NCBI GenBank assembly: GCA_022562155.1
Contig: JADFPV010000017.1
Coordinates: 1 to 41,891, forward strand
DNA length: 41,891 nucleotides
From: Chloroflexota bacterium
GTDB taxonomy: Bacteria > Chloroflexota > Dehalococcoidia > DSTF01 > RBG-16-68-14
Direction of reading: 5' to 3'
The translations under genes and the position numbers were made by a program. Positions 21,437 to 25,653 of the stretch are shown in pieces. Position 1 is the first letter of the stretch, and every line of letters begins with the position of its first letter. The notes under the pieces are model-generated. The model made no database searches, was not told the origin of the DNA, and saw nothing but the letters and a program-made list of their open reading frames with translations.

Positions 21437-21739
21437 CGACAACCGCCTATCTGATAAAGCAAGCTGTCGGAGAACATCGTTTCGTGCCATCGCTGGCGAG
21501 ACTACCACATCCCTCAGCGGCTAGGCAGACCGAGCCGCGGGTGGCACTGATCGCGGAATCTTCGTGCCACGGAGTACAGTTCTGCGAGGCTGAGCGACTT
21601 GGTTGCTTCGCTACGGACGCCGAACTGGCGGGACCGGGCATCTGTTCCGGCGAGGGCGGGATGCTGCCCGAAGAGCAGGCCGCCAACTCTCGCTACTTCT
21701 ACGAGCTTGCATTTGCGACGCCGCAACAAAGCAGGCCCG

Positions 21740-21946
21740 GGGCGCGGTTACGTGGTTGGTACATTCGACGAACCGAACCCGCCTCCCGTACGTCTGTGGC
21801 AGGAAGAAGTCCACAAGCCCGGCATCTATGACCTGGAGGTCGACACTTCCCTGCTGAGCCCTCAGGACTGTGCCGATGAAATCCGGAAGCGGCTGGCGGA
21901 AGAGCCGCCGGGCACAGCGTTCCAGCAGCTCGCCAAACAGGCCTAG
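21740..21946 (+). pseudogene. C-terminal remnant of a chloramphenicol-phosphotransferase-like P-loop kinase
   Basis: The frame ending in TAG at 21944 reads RLWQEEVHKPGIYDLEVDTS, then SPQDCADEIRKRL and AFQQLA. VH..G.YDLEVDTS..SP..CA..I..RL is the C-terminal signature I know from CPT-family small-molecule kinases. The P-loop half is absent: the 250 bases upstream give no GxxGxGKS in any plus frame. I therefore call it a decayed remnant. The rest of the stretch 21437-21740 shows nothing recognisable. Confidence 0.6.
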
Positions 21947-22160: not shown

Positions 22161-22184
22161 TCGTCTGGGCCACTGCTTCATGCC

Positions 22185-24042
22185 CTAGACCAGCTCCGGA
22201 TCCGCGTGTATCTCCACTAACGCCGGGCCGTCGTGCGAGAGGGCGTCAGCGATGGCCTCGTCTAGCTCATCAGCCTTGGAGACCTCGATTCCGAGCGCAC
22301 CACAAAGCTCGGCGTACTTCGCGAAGTTCGGGTTGTGCAGGGAAGTCTGCCAGACTTCCCAGTGGCCGGAGCGCTGCTCCTTGCTGATCTTCCCTAGTTC
22401 ATCGTTGTTGAGCAGGATGTGGGTGATGTTCATCTCATACTTCACGGCAGTCGTCAGTTCCGCCAGGTACTGGCCTAATCCCCCATCGCCTGATACCGCG
22501 ACGACCTGACGGCCCTTGAATCGCGGGTCATCCTCCTGAGTTGCCGCCCAAGCGCCCATCGCGGCAGGCAGCGCATAGCCGATCGAACCGAGATAGCCCG
22601 ACATCAGCACCGACTGGCGCGCGCACTCGAAGTAACGGCCGAAGCTGTAGGTATTGTTGCCGACGTCGACGGCGATGATGGCGTCCTCGTGGACTTGCCG
22701 CGTGAGCGCGTCGAAGATCGACGCCGAGTTGACTCCCCAGCCCCGGTCGTCGGCGCGGCGGCGCGCCTTCTCCGTGCGCCAGATCGACCAGCGCTGCTCC
22801 ATGTCCCACGCTGGTCTTCAGCGACGTTGTTGCCGTTAAGGCGTTCGGAGAAGATCCCACAAGTGACGCCGATCTCGCCCCAGACCGGCACGGTGACGGC
22901 ATGGAACTTGCCCAGCATCATCGGATCGAAGTCGACCTGGATCGTCTTGATCTTCGGCGTGATGCCCGTGTGGTCGCTGAAACTCGCACCGAAGACGAGC
23001 AGGCAGTCGGACTCGTTCATCACCCAGCTTGCCACCGGCGTGCCGCTATGGCCCAGGACGCCCGCTGCCAATGGATGGCTGTCGGAGATCTGTCCCTTCC
23101 CCTTGAAGGTCGTAATGACGGGACAACTCAGTGACTCCGCGAGTTCGATGATGCCCGGCATGGTGTAGCGCGCGCCGTGGCCAACGATTATGACGGGTCG
23201 CTTCGACTTCGACAACAACGCGATTGCCTCATCCACCGCTGCTTCCCGCCTCGGTTCAAGATCGCGCTCTTGCAGGCGAGGTTCATCAGTTCCGCGTGGT
23301 TGCTGGTGTGGAGAACTGGCTGCGTCCACTGGGCCACCTTGCCATACGCGGCCTGCAGATCGATCTCCTGAAACGCACCCGGCCCAAGCACCTGCGTATT
23401 GACCTGCCCTGTCAGCGCGAGGACCGGCGACCGATCGACGTTTGCGTCCCACAAGCCGGTAAGCAGGTTCGTCGCTCCCGGACCTGCGATCGACAAGCAG
23501 GCAGCGGGGCGGCCGGTGAGCTTGCCGTACGCAGAGCACGCGAACGAAGCCGCGCCTTCATGCCGGATGCCGTAGTACTTGAGGTTTCCGGCTTCCTCCT
23601 GTACACGCACCGCATCGGCCAGTCCCAGGTTGGAATGGCCCACCATGCCGAAGACGTGCTTGACGCCCCAATTGACCATTTTTTCGACCATGAGGTCGCC
23701 GACGGTCCTCTGATGGGCCTGCTCCTCCGGCAGAGCGACATAAACGGCATCCTCACGAACATCGACGGGGAAGGATGTGCCTTCGTCGTCGAAGCCTGGC
23801 GCTGCTCCCGTAATGGGATCGTAGTCCCACCCGTGCCAAGGACAGCGAAGCAGGCCGTTTTCGATTGACCCCTCCCCTAGCGGGCCTCCTTGATGGGGAC
23901 AACGGTTGTCGAGCGCGCCGTACTGGCCTTCGAAGTGGGTCATGCAAAGCGTCAAGTGGCCGTAGGTAGCGGTCTTGACACGCCCCTCCGGCAACTCGTC
24001 CGGCTCCAGCACCTTCTGCCACTCAGTTGATTCTTCAGTCAT
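22185..24042 (-). pseudogene. Rieske [2Fe-2S] domain fused to thiamine-diphosphate enzyme (ALS/pyruvate-oxidase type), reading frame broken twice
   Basis: ATG 24042 follows GAGGA by seven bases. Residues 1-105 form a Rieske ferredoxin domain (C48-P-H50, C67-P-W-H70, with GGPLGEGSI between). The same unbroken frame continues at about residue 110 into the PYR domain of the acetolactate-synthase/pyruvate-oxidase family (QRTVGDLMVEKMVNWGVKHV; catalytic Glu162 in GIRHEGAASFAC; SIAGPGATNLLTGLWDA). Near 23240-23265 the frame breaks and about 30 residues expected after the PYR domain seem lost. The central domain (AVDEAIALLSKSKRPVIIVG) runs to about 22805, where a second shift leads into the ThDP-binding domain (GDGGLGQYLAELTTAVKYEM, then LLNNDELGK), ending ALVEIHADPELV. 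It may be a true pseudogene or an assembly with two indels. Confidence 0.85.
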
Positions 24043-24155
24043 CGTTCGTTCCTCATCTCCACTGGGTTCGCATGCTGATGCGATTCTACCTCCCATTCGT
24101 GTTGCGGGATGTACCATCAAGTACAGTCACGATTCGGTTTCACCACTATTTGGAA

Positions 24156-24184
24156 TTGACACCGCGTTCACGCGGATGTAACGT
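24156..24184 (+). promoter_or_regulatory. Promoter of the FAD oxidase gene with a palindrome in its spacer
   Basis: TTGACA (24156-24161), 17-bp spacer, TAACGT (24179-24184). The spacer contains the inverted repeat CCGCG-ttca-CGCGG (24162-24175), which could be an operator for a dimeric regulator. The start codon is 48 bp downstream. Confidence 0.55.
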
Positions 24185-24231
24185 ACCTGCGGCGACACCC
24201 CACCGACGAAGAACTTTGAGAGGAGCATCAC

Positions 24232-25653
24232 ATGGCTGGCGCACAAATTGCAACGAGTTCAGGAGGAAGCGCGGCGTTGGACGACGCTGCAGTTAACGGA
24301 CTAGCTTCCGCGCTTAAGGGCACCCTCATCAAGCAAGACGATCCCGCGTTCGACGAGACACGAGCGATCTGGAACGCCATGATCGACAAGCGGCCCGCGC
24401 TGATCGTCCAATGCGCGACGACGGCCGACATCGTCACGACCGTGAAGTTCGCTCGCGAACACGGCCTGCTCGTCGCCGTGCGTGGAGCCGGCCACAACAT
24501 CGCCGGCAAGGCGGTCTGGGACGACGCCCTGATGATCGACCTTTCGCAGATGAAGGGCGTCCGCGTAGACGCCGACGCCAAGCGGGCCTTCGTTGAGCCA
24601 GGCGCGACCCTTGCCGATGTCGACGCCGCCACAGCAGCCCACGGACTGGCGACGCCGACGGGCATCAACTCGACAACCGGCATCGCCGGCCTGACGCTGG
24701 GCGGCGGCTTTGGCTGGCTCAGCCGCAAGTACGGCATGACGGTCGATAACCTGATCTCCGCGGAGGTCATCACTGCAAACGGAGAACAGGTCACAGCGAA
24801 CGAGAGCGAAAACGCCGACCTCTTCTGGGCGCTCCGTGGCGGCAGCGGCAATTTTGGCATCGTGACGCAGTTCGAATTCCAGCTCCACGCCGTCGGGCCG
24901 GACCTGCTGAGCGGGCTCATCGTAATGCCGCAGTCGCAGGCCAGAGACGCTCTCAAGAAATACGCCGCGTTCACGAAGACGATGCCGGATGAGCTGAACG
25001 TCTGGTCCGTCCTGCGCCAAGCGCCGCCGCTCCCATTCCTGCCGGAGGACGTCCACGGCACGGACGTGATCCTTTTCGCGCTCTGTTACGCGGGCGACCC
25101 AGCGGAGGGGGAGAAGGCTATCGCACCGATCCGTGAGTGGGGTGACCCTGTCGGCGAGCATGTCGGCGTACAGCCGTTTACGGCTTGGCAGCAAGCCTTC
25201 GACCCGCTCCTTACACCCGGCTTGCGAAACTACTGGAAGTCGCACAACTTCACCGAGATCAGCGACGGGCTAATCGACGCGGTCGTCGAGGCCGCCGGCA
25301 AGGTTCCCTCGCCACATAGTGAGGTCTTCATTGCCGCGCTCGGCGGAGCGACAACGCGCGTCGCGCCAGACGCAATGGCCTACTCACACCGCGACGCCAC
25401 CTACATCATGAACGTCCACGGCCGTTGCGAGACAGCCGGCGAAGACGCGGCGGTTATGGCTTGGGCGCGCAGCGCGTTCGACGCGGCCGCGCCATTCGCG
25501 ACGGGCGGCGTGTATGTGAACTTCATGCCCGAGGATGAGGAAGACCGCGTTCCCGCCGCCTACGGCATCAATCAGGCGCGGCTCGCCGAGATAAAGAAGA
25601 AGTACGACCCGACGAACTTCTTCAGCCTGAATCAGAACATCAAGCCGGCGTAG
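24232..25653 (+). CDS. FAD-binding (PCMH/BBE) oxidoreductase
   Basis: A 473-residue enzyme of the berberine-bridge-enzyme-like group. The PCMH FAD domain includes VAVRGAGHNIAGKAV, whose His is the usual covalent attachment site for the FAD 8-alpha carbon, and INSTTGIAGLTLGGGFGWLS. The Cys that makes bicovalent FAD in many relatives is replaced here (NSTTG), so only single covalent attachment is expected. The C-terminal BBE segment is YGINQARLAEIKKKYDPTNF. GAGAGGAG stands just before ATG 24232. Family members oxidise sugars, alkaloids or other alcohols; the substrate is unknown. It is divergent from the Rieske-ThDP gene and may share control with it. Confidence 0.92.
   Translation: MAGAQIATSSGGSAALDDAAVNGLASALKGTLIKQDDPAFDETRAIWNAMIDKRPALIVQCATTADIVTTVKFAREHGLLVAVRGAGHNIAGKAVWDDALMIDLSQMKGVRVDADAKRAFVEPGATLADVDAATAAHGLATPTGINSTTGIAGLTLGGGFGWLSRKYGMTVDNLISAEVITANGEQVTANESENADLFWALRGGSGNFGIVTQFEFQLHAVGPDLLSGLIVMPQSQARDALKKYAAFTKTMPDELNVWSVLRQAPPLPFLPEDVHGTDVILFALCYAGDPAEGEKAIAPIREWGDPVGEHVGVQPFTAWQQAFDPLLTPGLRNYWKSHNFTEISDGLIDAVVEAAGKVPSPHSEVFIAALGGATTRVAPDAMAYSHRDATYIMNVHGRCETAGEDAAVMAWARSAFDAAAPFATGGVYVNFMPEDEEDRVPAAYGINQARLAEIKKKYDPTNFFSLNQNIKPA

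Follow-up and report, generated by a model that had tools for sequence, protein, structure and literature searches.

In this study, we identified a family of proteins, called RieTPP here, in which a Rieske iron–sulfur domain is fused to a thiamine diphosphate (ThDP)-dependent enzyme; a broken copy of its gene is present in the window, namely the whole 41,891-nucleotide stretch of DNA that was analyzed. The fusion and its conservation, the ligands of the cluster and of ThDP, the operon with a second Rieske-bearing protein, and the co-occurrence of the two are established at the level of the sequences. The reading of these data that we prefer, with a probability close to one half, is that RieTPP would be a 2-oxo-acid (probably pyruvate) oxidase passing electrons via its own Rieske cluster to Rieske-bearing partners.

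A broken RieTPP gene in the window

The earlier note on this DNA had described a single frame uniting a Rieske domain with the PYR domain of a ThDP enzyme, and this was borne out by the search against Pfam. The minus-strand open reading frame (ORF) at 24120..23188, with an ATG at 24042, contains PF00355 (Rieske; residues 7–81, E 2.7e-16) and then PF02776 (TPP_enzyme_N; residues 113–231, E 1.3e-32), and all four of the Rieske ligands claimed in that note are present in this frame. TPP_enzyme_M and TPP_enzyme_C were found in the remaining two minus-strand frames, and the stop codon of the gene ends at 22185. The features in the window are as follows.

23800..24024, minus strand: Rieske [2Fe-2S] domain (PF00355) with the ligands C48/H50 and C67/H70; gene start at ATG 24042
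23350..23706, minus strand: PYR domain of the ThDP enzyme (PF02776) with the catalytic Glu, E162, in the HEG motif
about 23241..23247, minus strand: site of a 106-bp deletion versus the intact same-genus gene, shifting the frame
22862..23236, minus strand: central domain of the ThDP enzyme (PF00205), in the second frame
about 22803..22807, minus strand: 1-bp deletion in a G run, the second frameshift
22209..22667, minus strand: ThDP-binding PP domain (PF02775), in the third frame, with the GDG...NN motif and the invariant Lys in place of POX Phe479
21608..21710, plus strand: 103-bp remnant of the partner gene (Rieske + Glu_synthase FMN), with 93% DNA identity

When an intact gene from the same genus (genome G002, L034:7724-9688) was used as the reference, the enzyme in the window was found to be complete but split over three frames by the two indels of 106 bp and 1 bp. 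Otherwise, the window copy has no stops in the frame of its sibling when aligned with G002. Third codon positions account for 284 of the 398 differences between the two genes, with dN/dS of about 0.07, and the break is therefore either recent or an error in the sequence or its consensus. In the former case, strong purifying selection would have acted on the gene up to very recent times. As it stands, the window copy is best regarded as a recently broken allele that is predicted to be non-functional, with its partner gene cut to a fragment. The remainder of the partner gene was absent from the assembly of the window (90.9% complete), in which only the 103-bp piece was found.

We also noticed that 21484-21946 (plus strand) of the window is a patchwork of fragments, where the 103 bp of the partner gene are followed by an out-of-frame stretch resembling, by eye, the C terminus of a CysC-type kinase. 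This patchwork is probably a sign of recombination or of chimeric assembly. When 22184-25653 of the window was compared with L034, furthermore, the RieTPP block was found to be flipped with respect to the neighboring gene of a berberine-type FAD oxidase.

Distribution and conservation of RieTPP

The intact orthologue from the same genus is encoded by one ORF of 654 aa and is 86% identical to the window copy over its surviving N-terminal part. RieTPP genes are plasmid-borne in some hosts: closed plasmids of Halorubrum, Haloferax, Halorarius, and Salinirubellus have 660-aa genes with 63–65% identity to the same-genus gene, and a gene on a Mycobacteroides plasmid is 57% identical to it. In a first scan, in which one genome per species was searched with peptide patterns inside the Rieske domain, 80 loci were hit, and each of them spans nearly the whole protein at 61–76% identity. 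Because that search was seeded on Rieske peptides, the presence of the Rieske domain in 100% of its hits is biased, and the whole-genome searches were therefore repeated with the full protein. RieTPP was then detected in 16 of the 247 acidobacterial genomes, 5 of the 117 Halobacteria, 1 of the 244 cyanobacteria, and 2 of the 301 genomes in the phylum of the window. The 80 loci of the first scan belong to Acidobacteriota, Nitrospirota, Nitrospinota, Pseudomonadota, Myxococcota, Bacteroidota, Planctomycetota, Gemmatimonadota, Calditrichota, Cyanobacteriota, Haloarchaea, and others.

The earlier note had regarded several intact homologues with both domains as proof that the fusion is real, and indeed 76 full-length relatives were found in about 15 bacterial phyla and haloarchaea. 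Two possibilities raised against the fusion did not hold: the domains are not always encoded separately in the homologues, given that all of the intact members but one carry the Rieske domain, and intact colinear homologues crossing the joint in dozens of genomes rule out an assembly junction at 23700-23740. In the 76 aligned full-length rows, the Rieske ligands (C-x-H ... C-x2-H; C48, H50, C67, and H70) as well as E162 are all invariant, with PF00355 scoring above the Pfam cut-off. As for the ThDP/Mg motif GDG...N, D555 and G556 are kept in all 76, G554 in 70, and position 582 is Asn in 70 and Asp in 6. TPP_enzyme_N, M, and C are arranged in the PYR-TH3-PP order, placing RieTPP in the POX/AHAS (decarboxylase) superfamily of ThDP enzymes. 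Both the fusion and its conservation are real, not an artefact.

The one exception is a 539-aa ThDP enzyme of the genome G290, which is 55% identical and has no Rieske domain; the Rieske domain is thus dispensable in at least one lineage. In a tree constructed with a quick method, G290 falls among the Rieske-bearing members, and this position suggests that G290 has lost the domain, although its branch is long. With 99% support, the tree also separates the RieTPP family from the 19 ThDP enzymes used as outgroup, and a single gain of the fusion is sufficient to explain it. The family appears to have been dispersed by transfer.

Rieske domain

The best solved relatives of the Rieske domain are dioxygenase ferredoxins rather than bc1 Rieske proteins, and a high-potential Rieske domain of the bc1 type was rejected on this basis. 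RieTPP is like the Rieske ferredoxins of dioxygenases (T4moC, BphF/CarAc type) in its Rieske sequence and in the absence of the bc1-type disulfide loop, but is unlike them in that its Rieske domain is fused to a ThDP enzyme and serves no oxygenase. Dioxygenase Rieske ferredoxins have potentials near −100 to −150 mV, which would suit them as acceptors for a flavin or a ThDP carbanion.

ThDP-dependent enzyme and its active site

Assignment of the ThDP part to the acetolactate-synthase/pyruvate-oxidase type, as in the earlier note, was supported by its nearest enzymes, POX and AHAS, with 25–28% identity. The best NCBIfam model for this part is PRK08611 pyruvate oxidase with 382 bits; the PRK08611 scores of 382–395 bits are nonetheless far under the curated cut-off of 742, and all POX models score far below their cut-offs. 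In the PDB, the best relatives are E. coli PoxB (3eya/3ey9) and L. plantarum POX (LpPOX). An AlphaFold model (45 rows; pLDDT 90, pTM 0.88) matches the folds of AHAS, PoxB, LpPOX, and C. glutamicum pyruvate:quinone oxidoreductase (PQO), AHAS (7u25, 6lpi) and POX being equally close to it in fold.

When compared with the POX/PQO group (E. coli PoxB, L. plantarum POX, C. glutamicum PQO, and S. aureus CidC; NF006377/PRK08611), RieTPP has the same order of the three ThDP domains, the catalytic Glu, the FQE motif, and, after the NN-x-LG motif, the POX-type Glu (E591, corresponding to LpPOX Glu483), and its fold is similar with TM 0.8–0.9 on target. In contrast to this group, RieTPP is equipped with the N-terminal Rieske domain, has Lys for Phe479/Phe465, and remains at about 25–28% identity. 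Also, RieTPP ends at the PP domain, and a membrane-binding tail of the PoxB type is hence not evident.

The Lys residue, K587, is conserved in 76/76 at the position beside the reacting carbon that is occupied by Phe479 in LpPOX and Phe465 in PoxB; the position was confirmed by F479W entries, 2ez4 among others. In the active-site helix of RieTPP, K587 and K590 are both invariant. No Lys was found at the position of K587 among the outgroup ThDP enzymes that are alignable there; the Rieske-less relative in G290 does have this Lys. With an invariant Lys replacing Phe479/Phe465, the substrate and chemistry may differ from those of pyruvate oxidase, and this residue is the clearest sign of a chemistry or a substrate other than that of a simple POX. 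Given that neither the family score nor the active-site Phe agrees with POX proper, we did not assign RieTPP to it and file RieTPP as a ThDP enzyme of the POX/AHAS kind, distinct from pyruvate oxidase proper. Acetolactate synthase was also rejected as a simple identity, because the active-site Trp motif of AHAS is absent and POX models score higher, although the two are not distinguished by the fold.

Regarding FAD, the positions of RieTPP aligned to the FAD contacts of PoxB are conserved within the family. A comparison for FAD binding with a hand-typed consensus of the central domain was weak, and FAD-binding as well as FAD-free relatives match.

Partner genes and neighborhood of RieTPP

In G002, a partner gene located 34 bp upstream of RieTPP encodes a Rieske domain together with the FMN domain of glutamate synthase. 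This protein has the SGEGG and C-x5-C-x4-C ([3Fe-4S]) motifs and no amidotransferase domain, and fusions of this kind are widespread. The further Rieske-bearing partners of the system had been missed in the earlier note; examples are listed below with the relatives that have CDGSH domains.

L034:9722-11341, minus strand: Rieske–Glu_synthase fusion with the FMN/[3Fe-4S] domain, without amidotransferase
L031:15970-17679 and L116:4145-5710: Rieske–Glu_synthase fusions with the FMN/[3Fe-4S] domain, without amidotransferase
L146:6357-7925 and L147:5539-7302: relatives of the partner with tandem CDGSH where the Rieske domain would stand
L054:12782-13834, L049:3761-4819, and L038:2110-3921: Rieske–MsrQ-like fusions

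In 35 of the 76 loci, no more than 4.2 kb separates the partner gene from RieTPP; 34 of these pairs share a strand, and in 21 the two genes overlap or are within 130 bp of each other. When the two genes are apart, the partner is often encoded at another site of the same genome. A search for the partner in RieTPP records gave matches in 32 of 50, at least one of which is weak and without the Rieske part. In Halobacteria, the partner is present in 5/5 genomes with RieTPP versus 1/112 without it (Fisher P = 3.6e-8, ignoring relatedness), and the numbers in Acidobacteriota are 8/16 versus 2/231 (P = 1.8e-9, again ignoring relatedness). The partner is thus missing from half of the acidobacterial genomes with RieTPP, and it is missing from some cyanobacteria as well. 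G290, the sole other sampled genome with a RieTPP relative in the phylum of the window, has the Rieske-bearing partner. A 983-aa ORF for the partner in L113 was discarded as a spurious high-GC extension.

Four relatives of the partner in Acidobacteriota have no Rieske domain, and the two inspected (G754 and G784) possess tandem CDGSH [2Fe-2S] domains instead. Such an exchange of one [2Fe-2S] domain for another argues for a role as an interchangeable electron port. The combination of CDGSH and Glu_synthase is recorded in a survey (PMC5859297); those proteins are homologous to the partner of RieTPP and similarly combine a [2Fe-2S] domain with the FMN domain of glutamate synthase, but they bear CDGSH and have no ThDP partner described.

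A third fusion, in which a Rieske domain is joined to an MsrQ-like (Ferric_reduct) heme membrane protein, is near RieTPP in nine loci of several phyla. Small membrane proteins of no recognized family accompany these fusions. In Hellea (L099), one same-strand run contains RieTPP, the Rieske–GltS partner, the Rieske–MsrQ-like protein, a 250-aa protein, a cation/proton antiporter, and malic enzyme. Across the loci, a cation/proton antiporter is a neighbor in eight, acetyl-CoA synthetase in six, and malic enzyme in five. Beside RieTPP in 20 loci (e.g., L037:4010-4885 and L046:13278-14138), we also noticed a DUF5996 protein.

Proposed function of RieTPP

A role of the Rieske domain as an electron acceptor is favored by the Rieske-bearing, redox-type neighbors. 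Removal of electrons from the ThDP intermediate, as first proposed in the earlier note, is plausible and belongs to our leading model, which we would expect to be correct about half of the time. In this model, a low-potential Rieske domain of the ferredoxin type is attached to the N terminus of a pyruvate-oxidase-type ThDP enzyme. The substrate, the use of FAD, the electron path, and the product that we infer are as follows. A 2-oxo acid, probably pyruvate, would be decarboxylated to the hydroxyethyl-ThDP carbanion, which would then be oxidized by FAD and/or directly, probably via bound FAD. Electrons would exit singly through the [2Fe-2S] cluster, with acetate or a related acid being released, and would be passed to the Rieske/glutamate-synthase-type FMN-[3Fe-4S] protein of the same operon or, in some lineages, to the Rieske/MsrQ-like heme membrane protein and thereby be linked to quinones. 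FAD is the first electron acceptor in the relatives of POX, and a direct transfer from ThDP to the Rieske cluster without FAD is not supported over the ThDP–FAD–Rieske path. Malic enzyme produces pyruvate, and acetyl-CoA synthetase consumes acetate; the presence of both among the neighbors fits pyruvate in and acetate out, which is the main hint at such a reaction but no more than a hint.

In a more general form of this model, which we consider somewhat less likely than not, the ThDP oxidase, the glutamate-synthase-type FMN-[3Fe-4S] enzyme, and the MsrQ-like protein would be wired in a modular fashion: in aerobic bacteria and haloarchaea, they would exchange electrons directly via shared Rieske plugs, draining electrons of 2-oxo acids either to the membrane or to amination, with no need for NAD or ferredoxin.

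The same wiring might instead serve a charged or dicarboxylic 2-oxo acid (2-oxoglutarate or oxaloacetate) tied to the glutamate-synthase-type partner, with the invariant Lys binding the second acid group. We consider this rather improbable but worth keeping in mind: K587 and K590 in the active-site helix at the Phe479 region of POX would fit such a substrate, as would the Glu_synthase domain retained in the partner with its SGEGG and C-x5-C-x4-C motifs, though without amidotransferase, whereas the closest characterized enzymes are specific to pyruvate, and malic enzyme and acetyl-CoA synthetase in the neighborhood indicate pyruvate and acetate. We regard it as unlikely that the Rieske domain is a sensor of redox or oxygen, or a structural addition, by which a ThDP enzyme of the acetolactate-synthase or decarboxylase type, itself not a redox enzyme, is regulated. 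Non-catalytic FAD and regulatory add-ons are frequent in AHAS, to which the fold (7u25, 6lpi) is as near as to POX, and a relative without the Rieske domain exists in G290; however, the partners in the same operon are also Rieske-bearing redox proteins, which are hard to explain by sensing alone, and the AHAS Trp motif is missing while the POX-type Glu, E591, is present. A chimeric assembly or misannotation joining two unrelated genes, as might be suspected from the two frame-breaking indels of the window copy in its rearranged and decayed locus, is refuted practically beyond doubt by intact homologues with an unbroken joint in isolates and closed plasmids (Halorubrum, Haloferax, Halorarius, and Mycobacteroides) and in dozens of genomes.

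The oxidase that we propose would be like pyruvate:ferredoxin oxidoreductase (PFOR) in the idea that iron–sulfur clusters take single electrons from the ThDP intermediate, whereas PFOR has another domain layout, [4Fe-4S] ferredoxin clusters, and CoA chemistry. Indeed, a PFOR-like architecture was rejected, since only TPP_N/M/C and Rieske were found with Pfam; RieTPP would be similar to PFOR in its working at most and is not a member. If true, a Rieske cluster in a ThDP oxidase would be a new route of 2-oxo-acid oxidation, standing between the oxygen-tolerant FAD pyruvate oxidases and the oxygen-sensitive PFORs, and a role for RieTPP could also give one to the linked Rieske–glutamate-synthase family, so that two families would be understood together. 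In the open-access literature, subscription papers being outside this coverage, we found no description of the Rieske–ThDP fusion or of its pairing with the Rieske–glutamate-synthase protein, in agreement with the earlier note, which knew of no described example. RieTPP sequences are carried in public records, where they are labeled only “thiamine pyrophosphate-binding protein.”
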